Positions 20,169 to 60,200 of a stretch of DNA of 64,000 nt are shown here, piece by piece. The notes beneath the pieces are model-generated. The model had not been told where the DNA came from. It searched no databases and worked only from the letters and a program-made list of their open reading frames with translations. The DNA is taken from positions 40,845,795-40,909,794 of the forward strand of contig NC_092670.1 in the NCBI RefSeq assembly GCF_964355755.1, given 5' to 3'. Made by a program: the position numbers and the translations under genes. This DNA comes from Antedon mediterranea (lineage: Eukaryota > Echinodermata > Crinoidea > Comatulida > Antedonidae). Each line of letters opens with the position of its first letter. The first letter of the stretch is position 1.

Positions 20169-21239
20169 ATGGTGAAAGATACTGGACCTAGTTTCGTAAA
20201 GAAACCGTACATAAACCAGAGCGATGACGGGAAAATATTAACATTTGCGTGTAAAGTTGCGGCAGATCCTCGTCCAACTGTCACTTGGCTGTTGAATAAT
20301 AAAGAAGTTAAAGATGGCGGAAGGTAACAAAAATACACTATTTATTTCAGATTATTAATTTGACACAAATATTTGATTTATTATCAAGCTCAAATACGTA
20401 CAATTTGTAAATTATCTTCTTATGAGGAACCAACAAGTTACGTAATGTAACTATAAAAGTTTGTGGACGTTGGTGGCGTAAGCACAAAAAAGCTACAATA
20501 ACAAAGCACATGGAAAAACAAAACATAAACAAATGATTTGATCCCCATTCTGGTTTCTGCTTAAACCATATTTTGTTAATAAAATTGCAAAGGTAATATG
20601 TCGAAAGTTGTATGAAAATTGGATTAAAGAAATGATATCACTAGTTTAAAGTTAATATATGCTGTATTGTACGCTGTTTTGAACCTAACTAGGCCTAGGC
20701 TAGGCCTGACTGACTTCACTCACTCACTGTGTGTAAAGTGGAACGGCTGTACGTGTCTGTGACCGCGAAAATTAAATGATCTAATTCTAGGCCTAGGCTT
20801 GGTAAGGCATTTATAGACACCCTTATAGACAGTGACTGACCTGTAAACAAATTTCCTCCTCCACCTATACCGCCGACTATCTATGGCAAATTTTCAAGGC
20901 AAAAAAAAAGACTTATACTTATAGTATACCTTTTTAATTGTGCACAAATTAATATTAAATTAATATTTTTTAGATACACACAAAAAGTTAAACCAGATGG
21001 AGGTGACTACCTTGTTTCTATGGAAATTAATGACATCGCAGAAAATGATGCAGGCAGCTACAAAGTCTGCGTTAAAAATAAATTTGGTGACACATCCGCA
21101 ACCATCGCCCTCAACTTTGGTGGTAAGTTTTCTTTTAAAGTTACATGGACATCTGACATCATATGTATTTTGGGAATTACAGTATCAAATATTTTTAATT
21201 TTTAGGTGTTATTGAAGAACAAACTACTACCAAGAGCAA
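20169..21239 (+). CDS. Twitchin exons 1-3: start and Ig1
   Basis: Exons 20169-20323, 20974-21122 and 21206-21239, residues 1-112. Ig1 shows the I-set core: Cys in TFACKV, Trp in VTWLLNN, and the NDAGSYKVCV strand-F motif. An intron splits the Arg codon of KDGGR (AG|A). The 34-nt exon 3 adds a short Thr/Glu linker. The acceptor before the ATG implies a spliced 5' UTR. Confidence 0.9.
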
Positions 21240-24200
21240 GTAAGTATTAAGTAGACAAACCAATTAATTAACTTAAGTCTAGACTTAATTAAACATAAAC
21301 CTTAGCATCCAGGTATGTAAAAATGTGGTATTTGCTTTTGGATATTATTGACAACTTGCATATGTATGATGAATGTTGTATAAAGTTTGAATGTATAAAT
21401 GTAGGCCAGCATTTGTACTCCACATAGTCTAAAAATACTATGTCTATCATCTGTACATAGTTGCATACATGTGTCCACCATTATCTGAATGCTATGTCTT
21501 GAAATGACATAACTAAGGCAGTGTGTCACAGAATGCTTAGAGCTAGTCATGTCTTAATTAGTCTGAATGTTCTTAGATCACATTGCACATTTTTGTTGCT
21601 GGTGTACATGGATTCTTGGCCTGTAAGATTATACCTTGAAATGTCTTTATAGATAGTCCTATCTTTGTGCTGAATTATCAATATATAATTGCTGGTCATG
21701 AATCAAATATACTGATTATGTATACACACCTTTTAAAAAAAAACATATTTGGGACATTTTTTGGAAAGTTTCTGGTTTTCAGAGAGTCTGGTATTGGGAG
21801 AGTTTACTGTATTTGGTATTGGAAAATAATATTTATTTGTGTAAAGTTGTTTAGAATGATGTGTCTATTTTTCTGTCATCGAGTGCTTATTAAAACCTAC
21901 CAGATAATAATGATTAAAAATCAAGTTATAAATTATATTAATTTTACACATATATTTTATTTTAATTATTATTTAAAAAAAAAAACTAGTGATGTGGATG
22001 GAGTGGCACCCAATTTCACAATGAAACCAAAAATGAGCCAATCAGATGATGCGTCAAAACTAACGATAGAATGCGAATTATGCGCCATACCAAGACCGGA
22101 CATTAAGTGGTATCTAGGAGACAAAGAACTGAAAGATGGCGGACGACTAAAGATTGGATGTGAAGAAGACGGAGAGTTTTATTTTCTTTCTTTAGATATA
22201 AACAACTTAAATGAGAAAGACGGCGGAGATTATAAAATTATTGCTACGAATAAATTAGGCACAGCAACAAATACTATCAAGTTGAACTTTGCTGGTAAGT
22301 TTTGTTTATTTTTATTATTTATAATTTCATACCTTAATATTGACAAGATACAATAAATGTCGATGGATGGAGGCCACCGTAAGTGAAATTTAAATTGTGT
22401 TCTCCGATTTAAAGTAATAGGGAAATGGCATTGGTCTATAATAAATGAAAAAAATGTTATAAATGATATGATTTTATTACAAACCTTTCAAATACTATTT
22501 TGTTTTTCAAATTCTAAAACTAATGTTTTTTTTCTGTAATAATTAATGTTAATGGTTCTGCTGTGTTTGCCTTTTCATTAAAACTTGTTTTTTTTATGAC
22601 TTTAATTACTGATGAAATCATAATTTTATGATATGTTTTATATTGTTGTGATGTTGATTTTTCACTAAATCTGTTGTTCTTATAGCGCACTCTTCAATAT
22701 CCATGCAATTATGTATTTTAGTAATTTGTATCCATCAAAAAGCATTCAACGCACTTTAACTTGTACTTAGTTGGAGCTTCTATGAGAACAAACTTAAATG
22801 CCACCGACTCTTACCGTAGTTTATCATTAATATTTACCTACTTCTAAACGAGAACGGGGTGGGGGATCATTGTTTGATCTTTATACACACTTCTGTTATT
22901 TTGCATGGCTGTTGAAGAGCATTTGTACACTTTATGTCAGACACTATGGAGAGCACAGTAGACTGTGGATTGAGGTCAAAGGTCACATAGCACAGTAGGT
23001 TGAATATCCACCTGTTCATGATGAAGTACTTTCCCTGCACCTGACACAGCTTGGCATTTGTGATGTCATCAAATCAAAAATGTCCAATCTCATTCCGATC
23101 CTATCCTGTAGTTTATTGCTGGTAAAAGAGAACGTTAAAAGGAACTGTAAATTACAAATTATTTTTACTATCTCTAAAAAATTCAAGGCATCAATGGCAA
23201 TTCAAATTATGTCAAAGGTCAATTTTAGGTATGCATAGAATTTTCTTTTTAAAGAACACAATCCTAAAATAAACTAAAGTATATAGAAAAGCACAGTACA
23301 AATTGTATGGCACCATTAGAAGATAACTTTAGGATGAAATTAGATTTACTTTTTTACCTCCTTTACTATGAAAAATTAACATTAGAACACGTTTCACCTG
23401 AAGTTATATTATTTGTGAAGTACCTGTGTTACGCCTTCTCTCAATCTACAACTCTGTGTTACCAATGTGTCTGCTTTTATCATTGTGTTCAGCCGATAAT
23501 ATAAAGATTCCCCCAGTAGCCCCCGACAACGGTGCTCCATCATTTACCATGAAGCCGAAGATTAATCAATCAAAAGATGGAACCAAACTTAGCTTCTTAT
23601 GCGAGCTTACCGCTGAACCAGAACCAACATTGACCTGGTACAAAGACAACGTTGAAATTAAACAAACTGGTCGTTATAAGATGACTGTTGAGTACGATGA
23701 CGAGGGATATTACTTTGTTTTGCTCTCTGTGAGTGACGTCACTGAAAAGGACGGCGGAAAATATACAGTTGTCGCCAAAAACTCACTGGGTGAAACCAAA
23801 TCTACAATTGATCTTAATTTTGACAGTAAGATTGCTGTGATTTTAACTTTTTATTGATTTACTAATGTTAATGTTTTAATATTTATTTATAATGTACATA
23901 ATATCTTTAATAACCAATTAAATAAACATAATTTTCAAACACAATCAAATCTCCCAATACTGAACTTTCTGAAAACCAGAAACTCTCTCCAAAGTTTACT
24001 TAAGGTAAAAAAGGTCACTAATTCTTTTTTTTACCTTTAAAATAACAGAATTTCTGGAAAACCAGACATACTAGGCCAGCCCAAGGTTGTCTGGTATTGG
24101 GAGAGGAGTGGTTTTTTTATTCAAAATTTATTGATAAATGTTGTTTTATAGGTACTGCTGAGGATGAAGCCCCAAAAGATAAATCACCAGCGTAAGTTTC

Positions 24201-27200
24201 TTTTTTATAAATGTACATTATTTTGTTTATAGTGAACTCTCTGCCGGCAGAAAGGCAATTTCAATAGAGAACTTGTATCCACCATTTGAACTTAGAGCTG
24301 CCTAGTCTACTCTAGTAAACTTTACTAAAACTCTGAATTTGCCACTATTTGGAGAAGACGACAGTCTCTGTTGCTGAGGCTTTATTTGATTGGCTGAGTT
24401 TATAAACTCTCCGCAAACTAGTTTGCCAAAGCTTGTCAACCGGTGTAAACAGCAAAGTTTGGAAATCTTAGTTCTGAGAAATACTTAAAGGACGATTTAA
24501 ATAAAAATCAGTGTAATGCTGATACACATACAATTAAAATGATATTCTTAATGAAAATACTAACTTGCTCTTTCAGTGGTATTGCTCCAACATTTCTTGA
24601 TAAGCCAACTATGTCACAGTCAGAGGATGGACATGAACTTACATTTGAAGCCAAACTTAAAGCTGATCCTAAACCTAGTATAGTATGGTAAGTTCACATT
24701 GTGCTATCTATGTTGAGTGTCTTATAAAAAATCGTTTATATAATTATATTGTTTAAAGGTCTAGCATGGCAAATATGTTAGGTTTGTGGTACACCATATG
24801 ATTCTGAAGAAAATAAATTATGGTTGAGGATGTCTCCAACTTTTCAGTTGTTGTTCTGCAACCACCCTCTGGGGGAGTTGAAACCACATTGTGTACTGTA
24901 AACTAACTTTACTTAATCATCTTTAAAGAGGATCACTCATGCAAGTGTTCATTTAAAAATAACTGATATTAAGAGATCGTCCTTATACTTGTATAATTAT
25001 AGTTCTATCATCATATATTAATATATATTGATTTGCTACTTAAGGTATTTCAACAACCAAGCAATGAAAGATGGCGGTAGATTTAAGATCAGTATTAAGC
25101 AAACTGCCGGTGTGTATGTGCTCACTCTGAACATTAAGAACGTGACGCCAAAAGACGGTGGTAGTTACAAAATAGAAGCTAAAAATACCTTGGGTGTCAG
25201 TACCTCAACAATCAACCTTAACTTCAACAGTAAGTACATTAGTAGGATAGTTAAAATACTGCTTTGGATGCGGCACAGTGGCTTAGTGCCTGGCGCATGC
25301 TTTCTTGTAAATCCAAGGGTCCTTGGTTCAACACCAGCCATAGTTCCTAGATTTGTTCAATACAGCACCACTACCTTAACCTCATGCGGAACTTGGATTA
25401 AAATGGGTTTCACAAATTATACAGTAGAACCAGACCACTATTCAGGTACACCCTTTAAACTGAAAAGAAGAAAACTAAATAAAATTGATTTTTTATTCTT
25501 TAGTTACAGAGGGCAGTAGACAGGGTGCACCATCATTTATTGAAAAACCAAACATAAAACAAGAAGACGAAGGGCGCCATTTGATCTTTGAGATTAAAGT
25601 TATGGCCGAACCTTCTCCAACAGTCACCTGGTACTATGGCAACAAGACCATCAGCGACGGCGGTCGGTATAAAACAAAGACCAAGACGCAAGGAAAGATC
25701 CACATATTGATTTTAGACATGACGGGTGTAACCCCTAGCGATGCTGGAAATTACAGAGTGGTTGTAAATAACGCAAAAGGAGAGGCTACCTCCACTATTA
25801 ATATTAGCTTTGAAGGTAAGGGTTTTATGGATACCATTATGGGATATCCTTCAATTACAGCCGACAACAAAATCTGCTGCACAATTTTTTTTTGTTAGGG
25901 TTAGATATTTTGTAGTCAATTTCAGTAACTGATGTAATCCAATGATGGCATTAAAAAAAACTTGATCTTTACTCTCTCTCTCCTTCAGACCCCTATATTT
26001 TTTAATTTTTTAATTCAATTAACTGGCTTCCAAAAATCAACTTGAAATTCATATATTAAAGTACAAACTTTATAAGTTTTCATATTTCTCATCATAATCA
26101 TCATCATAATCGTCATCATCATAATCATCATCATCATTATCATCATCATCACCATTAATTATAATTCCCACAGTTACATAATAATACTATTGAATAAAAC
26201 ACCAAATTGTCTTTTTGTTTTCTTAGTGCAAGCTGGAAAGCCTAAGCAAGTTAAAGTGAACACTGCTCCTCCACTACACATTGACTTTATCAGCCACAAA
26301 GAAGTGGTGGAAGAATACTCAGAGTACTCAGAAACAGTGACGGAATCATCAACAGAAATCATAGAAGAAAAGATTAAGGTTGTGAAAGGGTTAAAAGATC
26401 AGGTAATGATTTAGTTTGTATTGTAACTATCTATGTGACTATCTTGCTATATTAATTATAAAGATAATTGCACTTGCACTGATGAAGAGCTAGTGTTGCC
26501 TGAAAGCTCTGATAATTTTTCTGACTGTTTTACTGACTTTTTGCTTAATTTATTTTGTATCTCCAGCACAGTCCACTGATACTCAAAGCATTGTCATTTT
26601 TTTTTAGTATTTTGCCTTTGGATTTATCTTTATACAATTATATAAAAACTTTCATTTTTACACAGAGAATAAACATTTTGCTTTTTATCTTTAAATCTTT
26701 TCATAATTTTTCACCGGCTTTTATTTTTTGTTTTTATTCAGGATCTTATAGATGGAGATAAATTAACTCTTCGTGTTAAATTTTCTTCCAAACCCATCAC
26801 TGTTAACTGGTTTCTGTGAGTTTAAACTTTATTCTAATTAAGTATATTAAAGTAAGTCAGCAAAATATGCAGTGAGAATGATGTTACTTAACTTAATGCT
26901 ACAAAACTTAATGTTACCAAACTTTTCAAAGCTTAAAACTATGTGGGATAACTTCACACAAACAATATGCAATTCACCATTAATGACAACAATTTCAAAA
27001 CCTCTTAAAAACACATCTTTTATCTAAAAAAATATTGCTTTCCAGATGGTTCTTGTAAAATGTTTGATATTTGCAAAGCCTTATAGAAATGACAATGTTA
27101 TGTTATTTTTCAGGGATGGCAAGCCACTACAACCGTCACCAGATTACGAGATGAAAGAAGAGAAAGATGAGTATGTACTTATTATGGAGGAGGTGTTTCC

Positions 27201-30200
27201 AGAAGATAGTGGAGATTACAGTGTCGTTGGCAAAAATTCCAGCAGTGAAGTTAGATCTATTTGTGAAGTGTACGTTGAAGGTATGTATACTACATCATTG
27301 TATATTGTTAGAAACATTCATAGGCTTTTTCATTTTGTAAATTTAAAGTTTAAGTACAGAAAAAAGAAACATAAAATCATTGTTTTTATTCTGTGTTTTT
27401 TCTGTGTCTTTTAGAGTTGAAAAAACCAGCACCTAAGCCAAGGTAACTTTATTTTAATTTAATTTTAATAGTTGAATGTTTATATCTTGTCATATTGTAG
27501 TTTGTGAGGGTCCCTAATGATCAGCCCTGGCTAGATGGACCACCCACGTAAAATATTGTTTAAATAAAATAAAAAATTAAATATAAAAAAATTTATTTAA
27601 TTTGATTTTATTTGGGAGAATGGGCAAAATCTTTTTGTATGGATTAATTTAATCTGACTTTGTATGTTTTTGTGATGGATTCCAGTAATATTTTATCTTT
27701 TTTTAGTCAAAAAGATAAACCACAAAAAATAGAAGAAAAAGTAGAACCAAAAAAAGATGTTAAACAGCAATCAAAGCCTCCAGGTAAGGAACCAACTAAA
27801 CCGGTAGAAGAGAAACCAATTGAAGTCAAGAAGACAGCACCTAAAGAAGAGTCTGCACCAGTTGAAGAAAAACCCATAGCTGTTAAAAAGACCGCACCCA
27901 AAGAGGAGTCTGCACCGCCTCCAGTTGAAGAAAAACCCATAGCTGTTAAAAAGACCGCACCCAAAGAGGAGTCTGCACCTCCAGCTCCAGAGAAGAAACC
28001 AGCTCCAAAGGACGAGAAGATAGAAGCTGTCAATAAAAAGCCAGCAGAGAAAGCGCCATCACCGGGCAAGGGATCACCAGCAAAGGCAGTACCAGAGATC
28101 ATAGTACCAGAAGAACCAACAGGGTCACCAAGCAGACAACCAGCAGAGAATGGGTCACTAAGCAAACAAGAACAGCTAGGTACGAATACATTATGTTTTA
28201 TTTTTCTTCACAAAATAATTTCAAATAAGTATTGTTTTTATAAGATTCTATACATTATGTTTTATCCTTTTTATCCTATCTTCTCTTTTGGTCTTTCAAA
28301 AATTGATTATTTTTCATTTCAATGACAGATTGGTTTTCACACTCAACCTTCATAATACATACATAATGACTGTGTTATATTAAACATGTAGGGTTTTAAT
28401 GTGTATGTCAAGTTTTGAAACAAAACTAAACCTCTAGTTCAGTTCAGTCTTATTTTGTATTTGTTTAAGAACAAGGTTTTCTTTTCTCTTTTAAAATAAT
28501 ATAAGAAGAACTTTTGAATAAATTAGTCTCAGACAACATCTAAAGCTAAGAAACATCATTACATATTTAAACTTATATTCCATGCTATTGCCTTTAAAAT
28601 GGTGATAGACTTTTAAGAAAATCTTGTTCTGTAACCAGTTCAAATGATTTTACCGTCATGCAGAGCAAGAACAAAAACTGTCACTAACGAACAAACAGAC
28701 TGGACATCGAGGCTCAATCAGCTCCAGACGAGGTGACCTTATAGAGTGGTGTGGTTTACAGCAGAATTTATAGCATACTATCTGTTATTTGAAGCGGTCA
28801 TGTTTGTTTTGTACTTGGTGGTCTCTGCCAAAAAACTGCTTTGTAGGGTTCAGCTTTGTTGCTCTATAAATTAACACTGCTTCTGCTACTGTATACATCT
28901 AATGATGAGAAAAGTTTATTGTTCGTTTATTTTAGTGTTTTATTGTACACTTTATTATACTATATAAAGGCTGCTTTTAATGTCATTTAATTATATCAGT
29001 TCTAATATTTCAGTTTATTTTACAGTGTAATACTATATTGTCTATTTACAGCTTTTTAAAATAATATTGGCTAATTATAAAGAGTGAACTTTTGCTCATA
29101 ATAATTAAAACAGTATATATACTGTACTACACTATAACATTTTCATCAACATTATCATCAACGTTGCTTCATCATCTCCATATCGTCATCATTGTCACTT
29201 CCTCATCATCATCATAATCATCATCATCATCAACCTCATCATCATCATCATTACCTCATCATTATCATCTTCTTCAACCTCATCATCATCATCACTACCT
29301 CATCATTATCATCATCATCAACCTCATCATCATCATCACTACCTCATCATTATCATCATCATCAACCTCATCATCATCATCATCATCACTACCTCATAAT
29401 TATCATCATCATCAACCTCATCATCATTATTACTACCTCATATCATCATCATCATCATTATCATCACGATCACTACCTCGTCATCATTAACTTACATGAA
29501 CAACTAGCCAATGAAAAGTGTTATAAAGATGGTTGAAATATATATTGTCCGTCTTCAAGGCTATACATACAGCAGAAAGTCTATTGATGAATTGGAAGAC
29601 TCTGGTCAGCCATATTTCTTGCAGAGTCCTTGTAAAGCCCAAGTTACTCAAGGTACTAGCAATGTGTACCATTGATTCTACCTGTAAATGATGATAACAA
29701 CCATGCTACCAATTATTGACTTTTTACCAACTTTTTTCCACATTTTTACAAAATACTAAAGTATATTTTTACTTTTTACTAAAAAATTTTGCATTTACTA
29801 AAATTCATATAAATTATCAATTTTTGATAACAAATAAGTGATTCCAGCATTGTGTTACTCATTCACAGATAGAATCAATAAAAACAGTTGTCATGGCATT
29901 ATTTTAAATTTTTGATGATCTTCCTCCAAAAATCAACAATAGGCACACCACAGGGTTCACCAAAGCATTCCCCAACTAGAGGCAGGAATGGAGAACAGTT
30001 GGATAAAAACCCATGCTTCAAAATGGCCCCCACTAAGACTCAAGTACTGGAAGGTAACAGAGTGTCCCTCCCCTAATACCCTCCTCCTTTTCAACCAATC
30101 AGTATCCGCTTGCTCACCCCTCAACCACCATTTATATGTTATATCTTACTCAATATAATTTATACAGTCAACTCTCCTAATATCAGAATTTCTGAAAACC

Positions 30201-33200
30201 GGAAACTCTCCCAATACCAGACTTTTATTAAACAGTCCCAAATTTCTTTTTACCATTAAAACACATTCCGAATATCAGACTTTCTAGAAAACCAGACATA
30301 TTTGGCAAGCCTAAAGGTGTCCGGTATAGAGAGTTGATGTACACATAGGTGAATCCAAGGGTGTTGATAGAATAAACCAGACATATTTGGCAAGCCTAAA
30401 GGTGTCCGGTATAGAAAGTTGACGTACACATAGGTGAATCCAAGGGTGTTGATAGAATAAACCAGACATATTTGGCAAGCCTAAAGGTGTCCGGTATAGA
30501 GAGTTGACGTACACATAGTTGATAGAATAGATATCCATCACTGTTACATACATCAGAGGTGATCAACATTTGCAGAAAAAAAATCTTGCAATCTTCTAAA
30601 AACATCATTTTACTGTATTACAAATATTTTTCAAATAATTTTAAAAAATGCTGAATTGGTCAGCATTACCTCTGAAGAGCACATAACTATGATTGTGTAA
30701 GATATAACAAAGCTTCCAAGCCACGCCCTTCCTTTCCTTCCTACCAATTCATTGTGATTTTATCGCCTCGCTTATCGGTGCTTTTTTGGAGTGGGTTTTG
30801 AGTTGTGTACCCCACCCACATTATTTGTTTTTACAACGCTTATATCAGAACCAGGTACGCAAAGCGGCAAATCTTATTTTATTCCTTTTTTTATTTGCTG
30901 TTTTTATCCTTTGTTTTTTCTCATAAACCCTATTTTCCTTTCGTATTCCTTGCTATTTATTTGATGTGTACTTTGATGCCTTTTAAACATGTTTTCCAAT
31001 AAAATACTACTCTTAACGCTTGATTTGGAATGTTGTACAACAGGACAGTCAGTGAAGTTTGAAGCGATTGTGGCAGGCAACCCTAAACCAACGGTCAGCT
31101 GGTTTAAAGGAAATTCCAAAATTGAACATGCTTGGAAAGATCGCTATTTTGTAAGTCATTTTATCACTATCTGTATTTTCAAATTTGTTATTTTCATTTA
31201 TTAATGTTGGCTTCACTGTGCCAAGGTGTATCCCATGTTCAATTATAATCTCGCCCTCAAGTATTTCCCACCCTTTAGACTTTGGCAAATCCAAATATAA
31301 TCTAATCTCTGTACTCGGTCATCTCCTGTATGAATAGGAGAAGTAAAAAAAAAACTCCATTATATGTGACTGACATCAGGGAGATGTATTTTGCAAGATG
31401 CAGTTATGTCTTTTTATTACTATACTTAAATACCGGTATATAGCATTCTCTTCCTACTTATTGTAGCTTAAATACCATGCCCAACGAGATGTTCACATAA
31501 TGGAAATTAGAAAGGCCAACAAAGTAGATGCAGCTGGACATTTTGTCTGTAAAGTAGAGAATATGAACGGTAGAGATGAACGCATGTTCACCCTAATTGT
31601 TACAGGTAACTACTCACTTTTATTTATTAGTCTAATATTGCCAAATCTTTTTCTCTTCTTTAAAATCTCTTCTTTAATCTTTTCTTTAATCTCTTCTTTA
31701 ATCTTTTCTTTAATCTCTTTAATAATTAAAAATAAAAAAACAATTAAATCAAATCTTTCATTAAACCTTTTCACAGCTTTTTTTTCTGGTTGCCAATAAC
31801 TTGGTGTAACTATTTCCAAAGTCAAATAATACTATAATATAATATAAGACTATTCATATTACCCACCCGTAATATTGTATGAGTACGCATTCATACAATA
31901 TTTAATTTCTATGGCGCTTTTAACAAAATGTTACAGATAATCTTCTACTTAAATGGTGTTTCTTTAATCTTAAGCCCAATGTTTCAAGAGGAACATTTTT
32001 AATTATATTTTTTAAAAGTTCTTATGTTGTATTAAGTAGTTTTATGTCACATGTTTTTAATGTTATTTATGTCTTCATGTTTTGTTAATATACATGAAAC
32101 ATTCCTGAACTTCTATGATGAATATTAAATGAGTCAGTTTACAAGAGTATAAGAGAGTAAAGTATATTTGTGAAACTGTAATAATTTTTAAATACTTTAT
32201 TTCACTTATTGCTTCATTAGCCGAAACAGCTAATAAAGGTTAGTCAAGCGGACGTAATTGGTAATTTCCTTGTTTACTATGGATATGAAACGAGAAACAA
32301 ATAAAATCTTTTTTTATAATTTATTTCTGAACTAATTCTATAGTAATGTGAATTTTGATTGACAAAAACAAATCAATCAAGAAAAAAAATATTATTTTTA
32401 ATAGTGCATGAATTATAATCTCAAAAGTTGTTACTAAGTGAATGTTTTTAAAAGTACTTTTAATCTATTCAATTATGGTTTTTGGAAACATGTTTTATAC
32501 AGTTTCTAAGGTAAAAGTTTTTTTTTTAAGGTTTTTTTTTTAAATTTTATTTTGAATCAACTGACAGAGATGAAAACCTCCACTAAAGTTTACAGTTTGT
32601 AGATGTCAGAAAACAGAGGTCAGGTCAAAGGTCAAAGTTGATTTGAGGTGCAGCAACATCGACCTTTACATACATTACATTTTAAATACAAATAACTAAA
32701 GGATAACATTTTTTTATTTATAAAAATGTAATAGAAGAACTAAAGTTTAGAAATCAAATATATTCAGTATGATTGGAGCGTGCATTCTATAAATAGATTG
32801 TAAACAATTATAATTACAGACAAAAAAATTGGTACAAGTTCTCGGACAAACTCAGCAAGTTCCTCCAGAACATCTAGTGTTGAGGATCTTCTAGCACAAG
32901 GTTTAAGATTGCCATACATTCAATATCACTCCGTACACGGTAGTCCTTAAGAGAGTGCACTCAATGTCACTCAGTACACAGTAGTCCTAAAGACAGTGCA
33001 CAAATTATGTCTTATCAAAATATTTTGGAGCATGACCTGTCATACTTTTTGAGAGCAAGCCCGAATCTACCTGATAATAGAACAAATTCATTATTATTAG
33101 TTGCAGAAAATTTTATTTTTAGTGATAACTATGCACAAATTTGTTTTAATAAACTGGAATTTAATCATCAACATTTAGTACATCCAAATGGTTTAGTTAG

Positions 33201-36200
33201 TAAAGAACCAAAAAAAAATCACAAATTGTAGTTAGAGGAATACCATAGTTAGAATAGATAATTAAACAACAAACTGAAATTCCTTTTACCAACTTATATA
33301 AAAACCTTTTATATATATAATTACAGCAATTTTTGGCGGCGCAGGTTCCCGAAAGTCTACCCCATGTTCCTCTAGAAGGTCTAGTATGGATTTACTCGAA
33401 GAAGGTTAAAATTACTTACAATATTACTTACAATATTATGCACAAAATCTCACAAATATATTAGATATACTTTTAGACCTTTTTGTGTATTCCATCAAAC
33501 AGTTGTTTAGAATCAATTTCTTCACAATTAAACGATCACAAAAAATCACATCAATATTGGTTGCACAGTTGTTTTTAGAACTCATTTGTACATAGTGCAG
33601 CCAAACTGGTTAGAACTGAATGTATGGTAGTTTTAGATACTTGTTGTCCTCCGTTCGTGTCTGTCATTTGCACATCATAATGTGATGTTTGGCAACTGTT
33701 GAGTTTCTCCTATAACCATTCTTTGTTTTAGAAATTTAGTTCTATAGAAAAATTATAAACAAAACACACAACAAAATGTAAATGATTAAAGCAATACATC
33801 GACAAGTTAAGTTAACAAATTTTTTTTCAATTACTTAGTAGATGTCCTTGCCAGTGAAATTGCTGCTCTTCCCAGGTGCCTAACATCGCAGTAAAAAATT
33901 CCCAGGGGCCATATGTCTAACATCACAGTAAAAAATTCCCAGGGGCCATATGTCTAACATCACAGTACAAAATTCCCAGGGGCCGACATCACAGCAAAAA
34001 ATTCCCAGGGGCCATATGTCCAACATCACAGTACAGAATTCCCAGGGGCCATATGTCCAACATCACATTACAAAATGTCCAGGGGCCATATATCCAACAT
34101 CACAGTACAGAATTCTCAGGGCCATAAGTCCAACATGAAGCTACACAATTCCCAGGGGCCATATGTCCAACATCACAGTACAGAATTCCAATGGGCCATA
34201 TGTCCAACATTACATTACAAAATTCCCAGGGGCCATATGTCCAACATCACAGTACAAAATTCCCAGGGCCATATGTCCAACATTACATTACAAAATTCCC
34301 AGGGGCCATATGTCCAACATCACAGTACAGAATTCCCAGGGCCATAAGTCCAACATCACAGTAAAAAATTCCCAGGGGCCATATGTCCAACATCTCATTA
34401 CAAAATTACCAGGGGCCATATGTCCAACATCACATTACAAAATTCCCAGGGGCCAACATCACAGTACAAAATTCCCAGGGCTATTTATCCATCATTTAAA
34501 TGAAATAAATAAAACCAATTGAACATTCATTCACCTAAATATAATGGATAAAATATTCTGAAATATTGATTACAGTGTAGTACTTGGTTGGTTGGTACTT
34601 AAGGTTTATAATTCCAAGAAGAGCGCGAGTTCTTCCCTGATTATTCACATGTTATGCTTTAGTATATTGCACAGTGTTTTGTGTGTTAACAAACAATTTC
34701 TATGGTCTTCTCCAACTTTTCTTTTTCTTACATTCATTTAATTTGTTTATTTACCTTCTTATTCTCCAAAGCATCACCTCAATTACTTGGTAAAGTTATT
34801 GATTATTTTCCCCATTTTTCCTTTTTTAAATTTTAAAAGTTGAACCACTAATCTCAGTCAGCCCTTTGTTCGGTTGTTTTAATGTTTTTGTTTGTATAAT
34901 GTTCGACATTTTGGTTGTATTTAAAGCACTTTTTATTACTAATGAGAAAACGTTTATTTAGTACCAATACCTTGCCTGTACAAATTAACAGGAATTAATT
35001 TTAGCACCTAGAATATTGTATTCGTTTATTACTATAAACTTAAGTTAAGGTAAGTTTTTCTAAAAGACATCTTGGCAAGAAAAGTAGAACCCTTTATATT
35101 TGCTTGTAGATTTAGACACAATTAATTAAATTTCAAATACTAGAAAACCTCTTTTCTACCCCAAATGTAATTTAAATAGTTATAGTTCCTGATTATACCA
35201 TATCCGCACAGTTTTGAGTAAAGTTTTTCCTAATTTATAACAACCCCTATCTTAATAGTAGAACAGCCCAAATAAAAAACTGTCGTTTAAATTATTGTAA
35301 ATGTTGATATTAGTATGAATAGATGGATTGTACCTTGTTTTAACTCTGGTTCTCTATCCCATTAACATAAATAACTAGATTATATATTTGAAAATGAATA
35401 TAAAAACTTACTTTACTGTAGTACTGTATATCCTACTGCAGTATTTGTAATGTAGAGTTAGTAAATATATGATTCTCCTAATAACTGCACCCTTTTAATG
35501 AAGTACCATTTAGATATAAGGGGTTGGGCAGATTCAATGGGAAGGCTCTGGCTTTCACAAATTGCAAAAGAAAGGACATCAAATTAAGTTTAGCACTTCA
35601 TTTTACTACTTATAAGCCCTATTTCAAAATCCTGGATGTTATTATCTCTATATAAATGTACTAATTTAATGCAATCATTGGCTTTCACAGATCGAAGCAG
35701 TGGCGGTGAGCTTGACTTTAGATCAATGCTTAAACATCGTGAAGTTGAGAGACGAGAGTCAAAGATCGATGTACCTGACTGGGGTGAACTTAAACACGTT
35801 GAAGGAGAGGAGAAAAGGGTTAGTTTATTCTAAATTAGTTTTCAAAAGTGGTATTCTGATTTGTTACAGTAATTCTCCTAGAGTTCAATTCATCAAGAAG
35901 TCAGTTTGTTGTGAATTACTATACAACTGTATGTGGACATTGATTGAACTTGGCCTTAACTAGAAAGTAGAAGTATATATATTTTATTTTAAGTCGTTTA
36001 TTAGTCGATTACCAATAGTAGATTAATCACTGTCCTATCAGATAGGTGGTCATCCCCCTGACACAGGGACTATTTTGTGAACCAGTTCACCGGGGTAACC
36101 CATACTCGTCGCAAATGATGAACTGTGTTCTTTAAAGTGCACACACTTTTAAACTATGTACAGTTGCATATAAATGTAAAATGACTACATCATTTTATCT

Positions 36201-39200
36201 AAACTGATGTTATATCATTTTTGTTTACAATTTTGCCTATTACATTGTATCATATAAATTTATTAGTCTGCTGAAATCACTCGGCCACTTAAAGCTAAAA
36301 AAGTGAATGAGCGCGATGGACGAGCTCGATTAGACTGTGGCGTCAAGTTCACCGGTGTCAAACCGCAATGGTACAAAAATGGTGACCCTATCAACCCTGG
36401 GCGCAAGTACAAAATGTTTGCTCGTGGAGCTGAGGTGGAGCTTGAGATCCAGGACTTGAACATAAAAGATAGCGGCGAGTATGAAGTTGCATTCGAAGAG
36501 TTAGCTCACACATCTTGTGAACTGACTGTTGAACGTGAGTAACATAATGTTTTGTTTGTCTGGCCACACTTCAAATCAATAGTTTTGAGATTTTTAGCCC
36601 ACATTTACCATAAGAGGTAAGCTAAATTAGAATACCATTGAAATGAGAATTTATTGTCGTATATATGGTAAAACCCATATACTGTAAGGCCAGCCCCTTA
36701 TATGGCCAGCCCCATGTATGACCAATCTCATCCATATTGGTAGATATTGGAGCAATTATTATTGTTCGTTACCTAGCTTTATTTTATCTATTCCTAGCAC
36801 CATACCCTATTTACAAAGTTATAAATAACAAAGGCCCTCACTAGAACCGTAAGCTTTTCTCATCAGATGTCATTACTGTACTCATTCATCTAGGCAATTT
36901 CAAGACCCCTATGTCATTTCTGTACTCATTCATCAAGGCAATTTCAAGACCCCTATGTCATTACTGTACTCATTCATCTAGGCAATTTCTAAGCACTGCT
37001 TACAAAGTATGGAATGAAATGTAATGTGTTACATTAAATGCTGCACATATTGCTTTAGATTATTACATTAAATGCCTCGCATAGTAAAATTCGCATTCAC
37101 TTTGTATCTAAAATTACATTTGTATCACCTTTTTCCATATGTTTTATACAGTAATAGAATTTACTTCCAATACACTACTATTTCTATATACTTCTGTATG
37201 TTTGTGAATATTCTATAGCTTATCAGGAAATGCCTGAACACATAATTTTCTACCATATATTAATTTTAAGGAGTGGAGAAAAAACAACCTTAAACATTTT
37301 ATGTTTTTTCTCCATTTTATCCATCTATTTTTTGTTTAAAAATTAAATAATTGTCGTTGCTTCATTCTTGCATATTGCTTGGCTGTTTGCTTTGCTTTGT
37401 GTTTCTTCATCTCCCGTTGTTGCTTCTGCTCTTCTTTCGCTACCATGGTAACTTGACAGAGCATCACTGTTTGGCTACAATGAGCAATAAGGAATTTGCT
37501 AAGCTGGTTTCCACTGGAGAGTTACCTAAAGATGGTAGGCACGATACTTGCTTTGTTTGTATATTCTATTTTCCTGTACTATGTGTCATGGTTGAGGACC
37601 ATGTCAACATTATTCTACTGCAGTTACTGAAGTAACTACATATTCTTTAACCTGCTTATACAATTATTACAAAATGTACTTACTGCAGTAACTGCAGTAG
37701 AATGGTTTGTCATATTAGATGATTAGATCGCTTTGAAATAAATTGTTTCATTTGTATACATTTTGGACATTTTTTAGAAATTTAGTACAAAAATGAATAA
37801 TAACATGACACATAGAACAGCAAAATGATGATGCTACTTCATTTTATAAATCATAAAAGAAAATATTCATAATAACAATTGCAGTTTGTATCATCATAAG
37901 CTAACATTTAAAAAAAATGTCAACAAGTTAATTGATATGAAAAACGAAATTATTAGATATTGCGGCATATTATTGTCAATAAGTAATTCACATATGAACA
38001 ACGATAGTAAGTCGCTGTTTTTTATGACTAGCATATTTATAGAATTTGATAAAAAAGTGGCAAAATCAGCTAATACTTTCTGAAATATACAGTTTACTTT
38101 CACAAAAATTGAAACTCTTCCAAAGTCCAATTTTTTTTTTCAAAATGTCTCAAATGTATTCTCTCTGGGAAACTAAACATTTTTTACAAGGGAAGTTACT
38201 AGTCTTAAGCTCTGCCGACACTATTAAACTTTATGTGGCAAAAAAATGTGATGTACCGGTATATATGGACATGATGATGTCATGTACTACAACATGACAT
38301 TTGTTATTTTACAAACATTTTGCTGATTTTGTTTCTTCTTGTTATCACTCTATTTAAGTATGCTGATGTATATTCAGATTATTTTATTAGTTGTCATTTC
38401 ATCTTGCTTTATCATTTGCATGTAAATTAAGCTAATGTATAAATATTATATAAATGTGTATATTAATTTATGTTCATATACTTTCTAAAGATTAATATTC
38501 CGTGATAACCATTCACATATGTTGCTTACTATCACTGTATATGTTTCAGTTAAGTAGATTATTCATAATTATTTAAATAAAAATGTTTACATAAAAATAC
38601 ATAAAACCTAGTTACTAACAACATAGTATAAATAAATGTTACATTGTGTGTGCTTTATGTTTAAAATTGAAAGCTGGCAAGTAAAGTTTTTGAATAAAAT
38701 AAATGAATATTCAAATATAATATTAATATGCAAATTATTATTATGAATATGTAAACATCAATATATGAATATTCAAATTAATAACATAAATATTTGAATA
38801 TTCAAAAATAATTACATAAATATATCAATATTCAAATATAAACATCAAATTCTAAACCACCCGGTGATTGTTTGTTACACAATTATATGAATATTCAAAT
38901 ATCATATTATATTCAAATGTAATAATATATGAATAGTCAAATAAGATAACATAAATATATGAATATTCAAATATGATAACATAAATATATGAATATTCAA
39001 ATATAATAATATATGCATATTCAAATATAATAACATAAATATATGAATATTTAAATGTAATAATATATGAATTTTCATCAAATTTGTGAATGTACAGAAT
39101 GTTTAACTGTTTGATTCCACTGACAGCTAAGAAACCCAGAGCAGATTTTATAAGCCTTCTAAAGAACCAAGAGGTAAAAGAGAATGCAGATGCTAAGTTC

Positions 39201-42200
39201 TCAGTTGAAGTAAGCGCAGACAGGATTGAATCAAGTTGGTACGTCAACGGTAAAAAGGTGACATTCCGTGACGCAAAGAAATATGAAACAAAGAAACTTG
39301 GACGTAAACACACACTGATTATCAAGAAAGTTGCCATTGAAGATCAGGGTGATGTCAAAGTTGAACTTGAAGGTCGAGACAGCACAGCAACGTTGACTGT
39401 TAAAGGTACAGTCAATTCTATCAAATATATATTTATATTTTACATTTACATTATATAAGTAAAGTACTAATTAATATTGAAAATTGAAGCATATTGATTT
39501 TCAGAACTACATAAGTGGTGTACTGCAAACTTGATATCAATTGGTATTCATTGTATTTCCATTTTGCCATTTTCAAATATATATTTGTATTTTTACAGAT
39601 ATATATATACAGGTATATAACTAAAGTACTAAGTACTTGACTGCTTATACATTACAACATTAAATCCTTCAGTTGATCATCCAATACTTTTTTATTCTCT
39701 AAAGCTCAACCAAAGTTTACCAAACCATTGAAAGATAAGACAGCTATAGAAAAACGCTCAACATCGTTAGAGTGTGAAGTTTCAGACTACACGTCCAAGG
39801 TGAAATGGACAAGGAACGGTAAACCATTAACTGAAACTGATAACATTAAAATGGTTATGGATGGCCTTAAGCGTGTGCTTATTATTGACAAGTTGAGTAA
39901 AGAGGATGCTGGGGAATACATGGCAGAATTTGAAGGTTTAAAGTCAGTTGCTAAGTTGACTGTTAGTGGTAAGTTTATCGCAAGTTTAATCCATTTTTAT
40001 GGTGCCATTCTACGATCATTGCTAATGGCATCTGTTCATAAAGATCAAAGGCAAGGTGTTTATTGCAAACCAAGACTATTGTACAATTATGGCCAATGGT
40101 AGCTTGACAAGGAATGGATAGTGTGTATTGCAAACCAAGACTATTGTACAATTATGGCCAATGGTAGCTTGACAAGGAATGGATAGTGTGTATTGCAAAC
40201 CAAGACTATTGGACAATTATGGCCAATGGTAGCTTGACAAGGAATGGATAGTGTGTATCTTGGTTTAATTAGTTAATTTTTGAAGGTACATTATTATTTT
40301 TATTCAGATTCACCCAAGTTTGCTGCGCCTATGAAGCAAGTAGAAGGGTTTGCTGGGAAGGACGCCGTCTTTGAAGCCGAGGTAACCGACAAAGACGTCG
40401 ACGTGTTGTGGGCTAAAGATGGTAAAGCAATACAACCTAGTGATAAGTATGAGATGATTCAGGAAGGAAAGATGCGTAAGTTGATTGTACATGATTTGAA
40501 AGCTGATGATGAGGGAGAATATCTATGTGGAATGGATGAAGACACTCTTACTACTGCCCCGCTAACTGTCAATGGTATGTATTCAGTATATAATAACAAA
40601 CTACTCTACTACTCTTTATGCTGCATGCATAAGGGTCATCCATTAGACTAGAACATGGAAATACATTGAAAATGTAAAATATTTAAAATAAAGCAACACA
40701 TTAAATATTACAATCGTGAAACAGCTGAAATGTTTGACAGCTTATCAATTTTTTCCCCTTTTCTTTTACTTTATTCAATAATATTTTATTTAAAAATAAT
40801 ATTGTTCTCGTTCCTCAAAAGCAGCCAGAACTTAGAATCTCTCATGTACATCATACCCTCATCATAACATAACTTGAATTGTTTAAATGTTGTTAAAGAA
40901 CATTTTTGGTCAATCCTCTGATCCAGGTAGACAGAGCCAACATTAAAAATTATTGGTATTTAAACTTATTATAAACCTGCTTTAATTCCGTATTTTCTCT
41001 ACATCTAAGAACCTCCAAGAGCTGTAGTTCCTAATGAACTTAAAAATATTGAAGTAGTTGCTGGCAAGCCTATCTCTCTGGATATTGACATCTATGGGTC
41101 ACCTCCTCCTAAGGTCCAGTGGCTTAAAGATGGTAAACCGATTGTAGAGAATGACCGTGTCAAAGTTGAATGGGCACCAGAGTATGCTTCGCTTTTGATT
41201 GAGAATTCTGAACGTGGAGATACAGGAACTTTGACCTTAGTTCTCAATAATGCGCATGGAACGGAAAAGATTGATTTTAAGGCTACAGTTATTGGTAAAA
41301 GAATTACTTAATTGCCATCAAGTAGAATACAGTCAACTCTCCCAATTCTGGACTCTCTGAAAACCAAATATTCTCCCAAAACCAGATTTTTTTTTAAACC
41401 CAAAATGTTCAAAACCTTTTTATCATTAAAAACACTATTAGAATTTCTGAAAATCAGGCATATTAGGCCAGCTCAAGTGTGTCCAGTATTTTAGGCCAGC
41501 CCAAGTGTGTCAAGTATTTTAGGCCAGCCCAAGTGTGTCCAGTATTTTAGGCCAGCCCAAGTGTCCAGTATTTTAGGCCAGCCCCAAGTGTGTCCGGTAT
41601 TTGGGGAGTTGACAGTAATAATTAAAAATAATAGAAAGTGTATTATGGTTATCACTCTAGCAAGTTTAGGTATGAAAACAAAATATACAGAATGAAAACT
41701 TTTTTTATGATGAACATGATTATTATGATTTTCATTTAGTTTTAGGTAACACCAGACAATGCTACTATGATACACCAGACAATGCTACTATGATACACCA
41801 GACAATGCTACTATGATACACCAGACAATGCTACTATGATACACCAGACAATGCTACTATGATACACCAGACAATGCTACTATGATACACCAGACAATGC
41901 TACTATGATACACCAGACAATGCTACTATGATACACCAGACAATGCTACTATGATACACCAGACAATGCTACTATGATACACCAGACAATGCTACTATGA
42001 TACACCAGACAATGCTACTATGATACACCAGACAATGCTACTATGATACACCAGACAATGCTACTATGATACACAACAAATCAAAATATTATTTCCATTG
42101 CATATAAAACGTTGAATTTACTAAATTGTTTTTTCTTTAAACACAGATAAGCCAGCAACACCAGAAAACGTTGTAATAGCCTCATACGATGAAAAGTCAG

Positions 42201-45200
42201 TGACTGTTGGTTGGGCCGCCCCACTAGATGACGGCGGTACTGAAATCGAAAACTATGTTGTAGAGTACAAAGAAGTGTATGCCACTGAATGGCTTATGGC
42301 CTCCGATAAAGAGACAGGCACACAATTGAAGATTCCGGATTTGATTGAGAAGAAGGAGTACAAATTCCGAGTGTCGGCTGTCAACAAAGTTGGCAAGAGC
42401 AAACCACAAGAAGCTAACAAGTCACAGGTTGTCAAAGAACCATTTGGTAAGCTTGTTTAAAGATTTAACTTTTATTTTAAGTTTAAAATACATTTTGTGA
42501 GATGTAACAATGATAACTTTATTTGGCAGTTTAAACACTTTTGCAACAGTTATACAAACTGGTAACAGCCCATCATGACACTTTGAGCTCTGTCTACACT
42601 AACAAACTTTATGTGACAAAAAGAGGTGATTTGCCCATATATACCCATGATCATATTTTTTGTCAAACAAGTTTGATAGTGTAGATAGATCTTTAGTTAT
42701 GCACTGGTTATTCATATGTTCTATTGATTGAGATCCTACTATACTGGGCCTAGCCTTCAAAATCACATAATCATCCCCATGTTTCTCAGTGCCTTTAAAT
42801 CAGGCTATTTTTTTTTGCAGACCCACCAGATCCACCAAAACCACCTGTTGTTACTGAGTGTCACGATGGTAAAATTGGTCTCAAATGGGATCCTCCTAAA
42901 TTTGACGGAGGATGTCCAATTCAGGGATACGTGTTAGAGAAGAAAGAACCTGGTTCTAAGCGCTGGACTAAAGTTAATAAAGATCCCATCAAAGAGACTG
43001 AGTTCATGGTTGACAATCTACCAGAGGATGGGGAGATTCAGTTCCGTGTTGCTGCAGTGAACAAAGCTGGGCCGAGTGAACCCAGTGAAGCATCAAAACC
43101 TGCTGTTGCCAAGGAACCTATTGGTATGTACAGTTTAACACAGACATACATGCATACATGGTCTTTGAATCTACCAATATATATAAATCAACTCTCACAA
43201 TTCTTTAATTTTGATTTAAAAAGAGAAACTTGTCTTGCTAGAAAGTGAAAAAGCCACCCACTTCTTTTTATCTATAACATTTACAAATTAAACAATATTA
43301 CCTATATTAGGGAAAAGTTTCATCAGGATTTGTAATTTGTGCTTTATAGAATAATGAATAAAAAAGATAAAAATTAGATGTATTATCTACCTTTTTTTCA
43401 TCAGAGCCAACATCCGCTCCAACTGAACTTAAAATTGGAGATGTTACCAAGAATTCAATGGAACTTAGCTGGACTAAGCCAGCAGAAGATGGTGGTAGTC
43501 CTATCAAGGGTTACCATGTAGAGAAGAAGAATCCAAAGACTGGTGAATGGGAGAGAGTTAACAAATACCCTATCAAAGACACCCACTTGACCGTCCCTGA
43601 CCTGGTAGAAGGTGAAGAGTATGAGCTAAGAGTGATTGCTGAGAACGAGGCTGGTATGAGTGAGCCCAGTGAAGCATCACAACCTACAGTCGCTAAAGAC
43701 CCAGAAAGTATGTACACTTCTCTATTAGTTGTAATTGAAATAACTAGATGGTACGCTCGCTTCGCTCGCGTACCATCTAGGTCGTGCCCACAGATGGTTC
43801 TCGAATACACAGTAATTTCAGCGTAACAAAACTGCCGATTTCAAATGTACGTACCGCAGGACTATATACATTATCGTTTACAGAAACGAATAAATAGACA
43901 CGATGATTTACGTAGTCAACTAAAATTAGCACCCTGGGAATTACTTCCGAAGGAGAAACTTATCACAAAATGAGTCCAAGTTTTTGATTTGGACTCATTT
44001 AAAGAAACCCAATTTGTGTTTTGTATGTAACATTAGGGTTCAGGGATGGGAAAGCGGATAGGTACAAAGAGGAACAATTTTTAAATATATTCTTTATCCA
44101 CTCAGTAACGAAATATTTTTTTCATGTTTTATAGGCCTATAAATAATATACCTCTAAATACAGTAAAACATTTGGGATTTAATACTTTTTTTATTTTATT
44201 TATTTATTTATTTATTTCTTTTAAATATTCATTGTACACTAATTTTCCCCGTGTATGGCAAGAGATTCCTAATTATATTAGAGAACATTCTTTATTTAGT
44301 TTAGTTAAAACTGTCACTGTCATAATCGATTGAAATATTAAAGTACCATGTCACGATACACCACTACGACGTTTATATTTGGTAATTATTAATTAATACA
44401 AACGTTGAGAAAGAACTGTCAGTATAAAGTTTATTTGTATATAATAATGTGTTTATATATCTAACAGTAGAGCCTATCCACAATCTCGCAAGTTTATTCT
44501 CAAAGGGCCCATATATTTACCTACCGTATGTGTTAAACCAAGGGCTCATAAATTTACCTACAGTACTTGTGTTAAACCAAACTCTGGCAGACTGAGAGAT
44601 TGGGATGTTCCATTCATCGCAAATCAATAGATTTGTATAATCGTATATTAAATCTATCAAAATAGTATTTTTTAAAGAAAATCGGCCTGTCTTCAACATT
44701 ATGATGGTGTACTCTAGCTGTTCAACCGGTTTTCAGCTATTAAAAACAATTATCGTAGGAGGAGATAGGAAAATGCGAAGCCTCCTCGCATTTTTGTGGC
44801 GGGTATTTTTCAAGATGGACATCCATTAGACAGTGTATACCACGGTCGGAAAACACCCCTATTTGGGGCAAATCGTTGAACCTAAATTCGTTTTAATCGT
44901 CAATAACTAATTATCTAACTTAATTTAGTTAGTAAACAGGGTTACATCAGGTGGTTAAAATCAGTACCGAAAGTACGAACCAACTTTATATACCATCGAG
45001 TAAAAATTATAGAAGTAAGGCGCGATTTACCGAATTTTGCCCTTACGTAAATTTATATATAGATTAACAAATATTTTTGTCAAGTTTTTTGTTTGTTTTA
45101 ACCTCTGTACAAATTGTTGTTGCTTTTTAGGAAAAAGATTTGTTTGTATTCCTCAAAAAGTGACAATAACAATATTTGTTTGAAAGCCTCTTTTATTTTA

Positions 45201-57200: not shown

Positions 57201-60200
57201 ATAGATACTTACCTGTATCAACCTACACATTATAGATACTTACCTGTATCAACCTACACATTATAGATACTTACCTGTATCAACCTACACATTATAGATA
57301 CTTACCTGTATCAACCTACACATTATAGATACTTACCTGTATCAACCTACAAATTATAGATACTTACCTGTATCAACCTACAAATTATAGATACTTACCT
57401 GTATCAACCTACAAATTATAGATACTTACCTGTATCAACCTACACATTATAGATACTTACCTGTATCAACCTACAAATTATAGATACTTACCTGTATCAA
57501 CCTACAAATTATAGATACTTACCTGTATCAACCTACAAATTATAGATACTTACCTGTATCAACCTACAAATTATAGATACTTACCTGTATCAACCTACAA
57601 ATTATAGATACTTACCTGTATCAACCTACAAATTATAGATACTTACCTGTATCAACCTACAAATTATAGATACTTACCTGTATCAACCTACAAATTATAG
57701 ATACTTACCTGTATCAACCTACAAATTGTAGATACTTACCTGTATCAACCTACACATTATAGATACTTACCTGTATCAACCTACAAATTATAGATACTTA
57801 CCTGTATCAACCTACACATTATAGATACTTACCTGTATCAACCTACAAATTATAGATACTTACCTGTATCAACCTACAAATTTTATTTTTAATACAATAA
57901 ACACCTTTATTATTATAAAGAAATTCATTTTGGCACCATTTCCAAATTCTGTGTTTCTTAAATGTTTTACTTGCCTATTTGTACTTTAAATATCGTGTTG
58001 CACTGATGTTTCTTTAATGTTTTACTTGCCTATTTGTACTTTAAATATCGTGTTGCACTGATGTTTCTTTAAAATGTTTAGGTCATCAACCACGTACAAG
58101 TTTTTTGTTGATTGACCGTTTCATCTTTTAATGTAGTTTATTCAGTTTTTTGTTGATTGACCGTTTCATCTTTTAATGTAGTTTATTCAGTTTTTTGTTG
58201 ATTGACCGTTTCATCTTTTAATGTAGTTTATTCAGTTTTTTGTTGATTGACCATTTCATCTTTTAATGTAGTTTATTCAATATTTTTTTTTTATGGTATT
58301 TCTATTTTGGATGAATAAATTAATGAAATAAAAATGTGTATAAATGTATTTATTGTGTTTACTTGCAGTGCAATATATACCCAGTGAAAGACTGTTCATT
58401 CAGTGTTAGCAACCTTGATGAGAATGCTAAGTATGAATTCAGAGTACGAGCTAAGAACGCAGCTGGCCTCAGTCAGCCTAGTGCTTCCTCAGATACCGTC
58501 TTCCCCAAGTCTGCTTGTGGTAAGTATTAAAGTTAATTTTTAGATTATAATACACAATGTCTAGCATAAAGGATAATGAGATTCATTTATGAATCTTTCT
58601 CAAACTTCATTTTTTGTTTTAGTACCACCTGGTAAGCCAGGAACACCTCAAATTGGTCAGGTGACACCAACGACAGTGGAACTAAACTGGACCAAACCAG
58701 TGTCTGATGGCGGCAGCAGAATCACAGGTAACTGGCGCTAAAAATTAGCAAGTACCAGAATAGAACTTAAGTGTGAAAAAACATTCATATTATGATTTTA
58801 CAAATGTATTAATTCATTACAAGGTTATGTGGTTGAGTTGAAGCCAACAGATTCAGATAATTGGACAAAATCTAACAAATATCCTGTCAAGGAACCACAC
58901 TTTACCGTAGATGATCTGACTCAAGGCAGAGAGTATGAGTTCAGAGTAAGAGCACAAAATGAGGCTGGAGTTAGTGAGCCTAGCAATGCTAGTCAACCAG
59001 TTGTACCCAAGGCAGCAAATGGTATGAAAATCCAAATTTTATAATAAATATTCTTTTTATTGTGTCTTATTTTTTTAACATTTTTTTTTTAAATAGCTCA
59101 TATTGAATTATATTTGTCTTTTATTTTTTTATTTTAGTTGGATCAGCGCCATACTTTGATAAACCGATTGATGACACATCAACTCCCAAGGGAGAACAAG
59201 CTAAGTTTGAGTGTAAGGTTGTAGGCAGACCAGCACCTCAAGTTAAATGGTAAATGTTATTATTGATCATCTTCCATTCAATAGCAACTAAACTCACTAA
59301 TTAGTTTATAATGCTGTAACTTATATAACTGCAACCCAATCCATAGTTGGCTATGCCATTTTAGTCTGAGATACCAAGACCTCTGAAATTTTAGGCCCCT
59401 AAGAATTTACTATCTTCAGGATATCACTCTACTGTCCACACATAATACTTTCAAATTTCAATGATTAGTACATTTTTCAATTCAATTTTTTGTACATGAA
59501 GGATGCATATTTTAGGCTAATAAGCACCCAATGAATAAATAAATAAATGTATAAAGACTTCATGCACTTCTCTTACAGGTTCAAGAATGGTATTGAATTG
59601 TACTCTGGTTTCCGTGTGCACATGAGAGAAAACGACAATACATATTCATTAGTATTGGACGATATACAAGAATCTGACCAATCAGAAATCACTTGTGAAA
59701 TTTCAAATAAAGCTGGAAAAGCAAGCTGCTCAGCCAAGCTAAAAGTAGAAGGTTAGTGTTACCGTAATCTGTACATCGTCATTGATGGCTTCTTTGTTGT
59801 TGAAACAGCATTTGCAAGCCACATTGTTACTTTGTCATCTCTATCATCAGTGTGTGTACCATTTTCTTCATTTTTGCCATCCTGAGATGAGTAGTAGTAA
59901 TTATTACAGGTTTTTTTAAATTAATTTATATGTAATTTTACTGTCTATGGACCAGAGATTCTGAAATAAAAGATTGAATGAGTGAATATCATCGTTATCA
60001 TCAACATTCTCACTTCCATTAGTGTTGATGCCGTAGAATTATATTGTAGTATCAACTTATTTTCATCATAGCCATTTCTTCCATATTTTATTCGTATCAT
60101 TTATTGTTAATATGTTTTATTTTTCTCGTTCAGTTCCACCAAAAATAGCTGGACCACCTCGTGATGTCCAAGTGGAGTCAGGGTCACCATTTAAGGTCAA

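Follow-up and report, generated by a model that had tools for sequence, protein, structure and literature searches.

A linker within the muscle protein twitchin of the crinoid Antedon mediterranea resembles the M-domain of cardiac myosin-binding protein C (cMyBP-C). The linker lies between the seventh and eighth detectable Ig domains (Ig7 and Ig8) of a plus-strand gene in the window, by which we mean the whole 64,000-nucleotide stretch analysed (G000:C1:40845795-40909794), taken from a 354 Mb assembly of 18 contigs, eleven of 22-41 Mb and seven no longer than 0.57 Mb. The gene encodes twitchin, an Ig and fibronectin type III (Fn3, or Fn) muscle protein with a twitchin-type kinase domain. The M-domain is the closest relative that we detected for the linker, and it had not been considered in the first-pass annotation of this DNA, which proposed a catch-type switch like that of mussel twitchin. 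The similarity to a heart domain is more surprising than the catch-switch idea; it is also short, and homology is not beyond doubt. We favor, with modest confidence, the view that the linker is related to the M-domain of MyBP-C and would act as a tether between thick and thin filaments gated by protein kinase A (PKA). Its phosphorylation, filament binding, tethering and splicing are what we infer from the sequence.

The linker is built from three consecutive exons with AG/GT borders and fitting phases, here called A, B and C:

32820..32900, plus strand: linker exon A, a phase 1-1 cassette reading DKKIGTSSRTNSASSSRTSSVEDLLAQ, with RTNS and RTSSV sites.
33327..33404, plus strand: linker exon B, a phase 1-1 cassette reading AIFGGAGSRKSTPCSSRRSSMDLLEE, with RKST and RRSSM sites.
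35691..35818, plus strand: linker exon C, phase 1-0, reading DRSSGGELDFRSMLKHREVERRESKIDVPDWGELKHVEGEEKR, with the element LDFRSMLKHREVERRESKIDVPDWGEL, which carries DFRxxL, and RRES.

These exons encode the three peptides that the first-pass annotation had singled out as a phospho-linker, and its placing of them between Ig7 and Ig8 agrees with the domain count from profile searches. Together they specify 96 residues after the seventh and before the eighth detectable Ig. The chain Ig7-A-B-C-Ig8 is free of stops in translation and stays so when A, B or both are omitted. The proteins of A and B are alike (GTSSRTNSASSSRTSSVEDLLAQ and GAGSRKSTPCSSRRSSM-DLLEE), with a score of 39 that was reached by 2 of 5,000 shuffles, and the two exons look like tandem copies. 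A motif scan of five introns for further cassettes of the A/B type gave two matches, neither in cassette context. A second copy of the linker elsewhere was likewise discarded: of the two places listed by the genome search, one was the linker exon and the other a weak match in titin (E 2.03). The intron between exons B and C contains a 37-bp minisatellite of about 15.8 copies (window 33882-34455).

Basic phosphorylation motifs are concentrated in the linker. The pattern R[RK]x[ST] occurs three times in its 96 residues (RKST, RRSS and RRES), as often as in the 3,397 residues of the 54 matched Ig and Fn segments of the gene. The stricter RRx[ST] gives two against none, and the looser [RK][RK]x[ST] three against eight, in the same comparison. 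DFRxxL was found once, in the linker, among 120,559 residues of six-frame open reading frames (ORFs; minimum length 20 residues) in a 104 kb region (the window with 10 kb upstream and 30 kb downstream). The repeats of smooth-muscle MLCK share the DFRxxL core. The classical R-R-x-S rule for PKA covers RRSSM and RRES, while RTSSV and RTNS match R-x-x-S alone. The linker is a likely candidate for a phosphorylation switch.

How does the linker compare with proteins of known structure? Searches against PDB covered 177,635 distinct solved-structure sequences, with matches listed to E 10. A 47-residue query, made up of exon C and four residues of the exon of Ig8, returned three matches in all: the mouse Mybpc3 M-domain (E 0.0019), human cMyBP-C (E 1.3) and an unrelated replication protein (E 3.6). 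The linker segment in the best of these reads LDFRSMLKHREVERRESKIDVP. With a 92-residue linker query the mouse M-domain was the sole match (E 0.012). Against the same M-domain the ORF of exon C scored 70, with the runner-up among 3,302 six-frame ORFs at 37, and its score was reached by 0 and 0 of 20,000 composition-preserving shuffles. Direct alignment of the whole linker, with RKSTPCSSRRSSMDLLEEDRSSGGELDFRSMLKHREVERRESKIDVP as the aligned segment, gave a score reached by 0 and 1 of 20,000 shuffles.

The order of elements agrees as well. A phospho-region comes first in both proteins and is followed by a block of the type LDFxSLLKxR...RRxSK, the match being weaker with the human than with the mouse sequence. 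In the direct alignment RKST and RRSS of the linker lie opposite RTSL and RRTS of the mouse protein, upstream of LDF; exon B aligns with a 12-residue stretch of mouse cMyBP-C, and exon C scores 68 with the first and 32 with the second half of the M-domain. Thus, the linker and the M-domain (MYBPC3; PDB 2lhu and 7tij) share R.S....RR.S, then G-x-LDFxSxLKxR...RRxSK...P, placed between Igs of an Ig/Fn muscle protein. By our own counting on the letters, mouse Ser273 and Ser282 face basic Ser/Thr sites, Ser302 faces Val and Ser307 faces RRES. Kinase-controlled serines of the mouse M-domain are reported to be Ser273, 282, 302 and 307, the M-domain being phosphorylated by PKA and other kinases in an end of the protein that contacts both actin and myosin (PMC7109175). 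It further differs from the M-domain by an extra duplicated serine exon and by its host, a twitchin that bears a kinase. No paper linking twitchin and MyBP-C by sequence was evident from titles and abstract openings among the literature matches listed, which is not proof of absence, and a scan of viral contigs for relatives gave none.

The host gene is identified as twitchin because its kinase domain is nearest to solved twitchins: in PDB three twitchin entries come first (E 5.7e-72, 2.2e-70 and 3.1e-70), ahead of MLCK4 (9.7e-59) and titin (5.9e-56). PDB 1KOB is Aplysia twitchin and 3UTO C. elegans twitchin, according to PMC12862963. The layout is also that of a twitchin, with tandem Igs, then Fn/Ig superrepeats, then a kinase and further Igs. 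Profile searches of the 104 kb region show one plus-strand gene, with 12 Igs (20214-41290), then 18 Fn3 and nine Igs up to 64513, the kinase domain and three further Igs. Ig numbers refer to detectable domains and would shift with any undetected Ig upstream of 20214. Outside the linker, the parts within the window are:

20214..25805, plus strand: Ig1 to Ig5, from profile matches.
27061..27276, plus strand: Ig6, extent as matched by profile (E 2.3e-18).
27648..28190, borders approximate, plus strand: P/A/K/E-rich (PEVK- or Pro/Ala-like) stretch with repeats of VEEKPIAVKKTAPKEESAP, in an ORF at 27648..28325 between Ig6 and Ig7.
29943..30053, plus strand: exon leading into Ig7 (NPCFKMAPTKTQVLEG), phase 1-1 by eye, from ORF and sequence.
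31044..31150, plus strand: Ig7, first exon (profile E 1e-9, splice borders).
31467..31605, plus strand: Ig7, second exon, phase 1 at its end (splice borders).
36267..36534, plus strand: Ig8 (profile E 9.1e-20).
39162..41290, plus strand: Ig9 (39162-39413), Ig10 (39731-39967), Ig11 (40334-40540) and Ig12 (41042-41290), from profile matches.
42158..63986, plus strand: Fn1 to Fn17 and Ig13 to Ig21, from profile matches; the gene continues past the window with Fn18, the kinase and three further Igs (loci L002 and L003).

Two other identities were rejected. The many Fn/Ig superrepeats and the kinase speak against MyBP-C itself; the twitchin-like kinase, together with a separate and much larger Ig/Fn region at C2:12.49-12.86 Mb, speaks against titin. 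The sequence PRADFISLLKNQEV in Ig9 had been a candidate for a second DFR element and by eye is the usual first strand of an Ig. Tandem repeats occur elsewhere in the gene: an 85-bp unit in the intron before Ig7 (2.8 copies at 97%, window 30289-30522) and a 51-bp array of 29 copies (97% match) between C-terminal Ig exons (L002 7865-9337). An echinoderm twitchin is not in itself new, since sea cucumber twitchins have been annotated and their presence reported (PMC7599334). Crinoid arm muscle has been reported to have a striated structure (PMC5888912).

The giant region on C2, which we call titin from its size, its arrays and its tri-helix bundle (THB) linker, bears on the origin of the M-domain. 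Two of its linkers, each after an Ig, match the tri-helix part of MyBP-C, one of them above the THB cut-off (E 8.6e-11; G000:C2:12632000-12641500, L035 1..9501). This stronger linker has RRDS, then the tri-helix (THB, PF18362), then DFRAMLKH...DWG, and ends in DFRAMLKHIKRAQRTETVEDIDWG. It shares with the twitchin linker an RRxS type of site (here RRDS) and a DFRxxLK element (here DFRAMLKH); it differs in having the tri-helix bundle, and no duplicated serine exons were seen in the 9.5 kb read. On one reading of these sequences, the M-domain would be complete in MyBP-C, with its phospho-half kept in this twitchin and its tri-helix half in this titin. A separate MyBP-C gene was also sought: among four places listed THB was above cut-off in one, the titin, and the C1 search came back empty, which proves nothing.

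Domain order offers a comparison on a larger scale. The Igs of human cMyBP-C were scored against all 24 Igs of the gene, either trimmed alike or extended with flanks, and the control was 39.5 kb of the titin gene, which supplied 35 Igs. The native order of domains C1-C5 of MyBP-C fits the Igs of the twitchin gene at rank 2 (trimmed) and 1 (extended) of 120, versus 67 and 70 of 120 for titin. With C8 included, the ranks are 9 of 720 (trimmed) and 2 of 720 (extended), versus 546 and 505. C5 and C8 score 132 and 128 with twitchin and 79 and 80 with the sampled titin Igs (trimmed, the Fn-rich part of titin being outside the sample). C1 with flanks scores 79 with Ig7, 70 with Ig4, 69 with Ig22 and 68 with Ig18, Ig7 leading only after addition of its separately encoded first strand; the best titin Ig reaches 57, trimmed or extended. 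C1 thus appears closer to some twitchin Igs, Ig7 included, than to the sampled titin Igs, with Ig7 not singled out. Indeed, the idea that Ig7 is the counterpart of C1, which came from a first matrix of 17 of the 24 Igs with extra flank on Ig7-Ig10 (79, next 65), was not upheld when the 24 Igs were trimmed alike.

Several of these results weigh against relationship to the M-domain. The match is short, spanning about 22-47 residues, with modest E-values in PDB. The signal from human cMyBP-C is weaker, as exon C was equalled by 2 and 4 of 20,000 shuffles, the values for the whole linker were 0.001 and 0.00035, and the PDB E-value is the 1.3 given above. A whole-genome search with the human M-domain led to two titin places, the linker exon not being among the matches. 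Val stands opposite mouse Ser302, and Pfam did not find a tri-helix bundle in Ig7-linker-Ig8, where the M-domain has one following. As for the neighboring Igs, trimmed C1 scores 68 with Ig18 and 65 with both Ig4 and Ig7, and Ig8 is not specifically C2-like: C2-C4 score 124, 130 and 111 with titin versus 78, 114 and 107 with twitchin (trimmed), their resemblance to titin Igs equalling or exceeding that to Ig8-Ig11.

An alternative is that DFRxxL is a general motif of the titin, MLCK and twitchin family, that the exons rich in serine are unrelated, disordered filler and that the match to the M-domain is convergence on a basic make-up rich in Ser, Lys and Arg. We regard this as possible but rather improbable. 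In its favor, DFRAMLKH...DWG of titin scores 64, reached by 0 and 0 of 20,000 shuffles, so that DFRxxLK is not unique to the linker; exons A and B are of low complexity, and Ig7 is not clearly C1-like. However, shuffles that preserve composition rarely or never reach the score of the linker, the upstream RRxS order also matches, and the frame of exon C is far ahead of 3,302 ORFs. A different question is which kinase would act on the sites. They might serve another basophilic kinase (CaMKII, PKC, RSK or PKD), or a contact with 14-3-3 or calmodulin, instead of PKA. This seems quite unlikely, given that RRSSM and RRES conform to the classical R-R-x-S rule, although RTSSV and RTNS fit R-x-x-S only. 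On the other hand, serines of the cMyBP-C M-domain are reported to be targets of PKC, PKD, CaMKII and RSK as well (PMC7109175).

We now return to the mussel catch mechanism, from which the first-pass annotation had started. Its statement that the D1 site of mussel twitchin lies between Ig7 and Ig8 is supported by a review, which gives D1 as Ser-1075 and describes a protein with 24 Ig domains, 15 Fn domains and a PEVK-like region (PMC12040844). Phosphorylation of mussel twitchin by PKA is reported to lead to its release from actin (PMC12040844, PMC7589332). Compared by place, the crinoid linker and D1 agree: each follows Ig7 and precedes Ig8, in a twitchin that has a PEVK-like region. They differ in that the kinase of the present gene looks inactive. 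Its exons (window-equivalent 66040-66830, L002) read HLALRPQS in place of HLDLKPEN and DYG in place of DFG, changes not shared with the C. elegans twitchin entries to which the domain aligns. A catalytically competent kinase is usual in twitchins, though not defining of them; the domain here is probably a pseudokinase. The mussel D1 presumably also combines R-R-x-S with a nearby DFRxxL. The review considers the twitchin kinase able to phosphorylate myorod (PMC12040844); since the kinase here is probably a pseudokinase, such a step through twitchin's own kinase would be unlikely in this animal.

These comparisons bear on the possibility that the linker and mussel D1 are orthologous in the strict sense, with the linker driving a true catch state in the crinoid. 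The shared position between Ig7 and Ig8 (PMC12040844) speaks for it, as does the presence of both R-R-x-S and DFRxxL; the apparently dead kinase speaks against it, given the role that the review considers for that domain. We find this reading doubtful. A catch switch in this animal is plausible, and it is the module of PKA site plus DFRxxL that may be old. In the gap between Ig22 and Ig23, the first two Igs after the kinase, a 75-bp tandem repeat (window-equivalent 69307-69530, L002) holds three occurrences of RRDSVK in open frames that may be coding. By our reading of the review, the mussel D2 gap corresponds to this Ig22-Ig23 gap (PMC12040844).

The first-pass annotation had attached evolutionary weight to the case that the animal was not a mollusc, and the Hox genes of the assembly point to an ambulacrarian. 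Twelve homeoboxes lie in one run at C2:7.83-8.21 Mb (0.38 Mb), eleven of them in one orientation and the twelfth, a posterior gene, inverted. By their homeodomains we take them to be Hox1 to Hox8, Hox9/10 and three Hox11/13. The reported posterior complement of ambulacrarians is Hox9/10 with Hox11/13a-c, ordered clusters being known from enteropneust hemichordates and some non-echinoid echinoderms (PMC6307216). The assignment therefore follows from finding Hox1-8, Hox9/10 and Hox11/13a-c in one cluster. Distal-less on the Hox chromosome, considered as a way of separating echinoderm from hemichordate, was not recognised among ten homeobox places examined, seven of them on C2. A search for mitochondrial COX1, as a guide to the species, found none. 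Chromosome C2 carries the Hox cluster and, about 4.3 Mb away, the giant titin-like region with its long Fn3 array; a linkage of Hox and titin has been inferred to have arisen in vertebrate ancestors (PMC12198301).

If the linker is indeed a relative of the M-domain, it could work as follows. The strand would be flexible, basic and rich in serine, carrying R-R-x-S and R-K-x-T sites and then the LDFRSMLKxR element and a further RRxS, while the remainder of twitchin stays held on the thick filament. In the unphosphorylated state the basic linker and DFRxxL may contact actin, the myosin head region or both, providing a tether or brake. Phosphorylation of the PKA type would add negative charge and release the tether. 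Because omission of exons A and B keeps the frame, splicing could alter the number of sites, a possible form of gain control.

A broader scenario, which we put forward tentatively and do not think likely as it stands, is that a single tether in an ancestral bilaterian gave rise to two PKA switches, one for the release of catch in molluscs and one for the tuning of the heart, via MyBP-C, in vertebrates. The phospho-M linker would have been kept in twitchin, vertebrate MyBP-C would be a shortened relative of the twitchin/titin type that retained this end, and the tri-helix half of the M-domain would also have survived in titin. Bivalve catch and the adrenergic control of the heart have been studied in separate fields. 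If one phospho-linker lies behind both, PKA-driven release of a thick-filament tether would be open to study across animals, and the origin of vertebrate MyBP-C would become testable through comparison of linkers. For a domain important in inherited heart disease, a non-chordate deuterostome would then provide an outgroup version.

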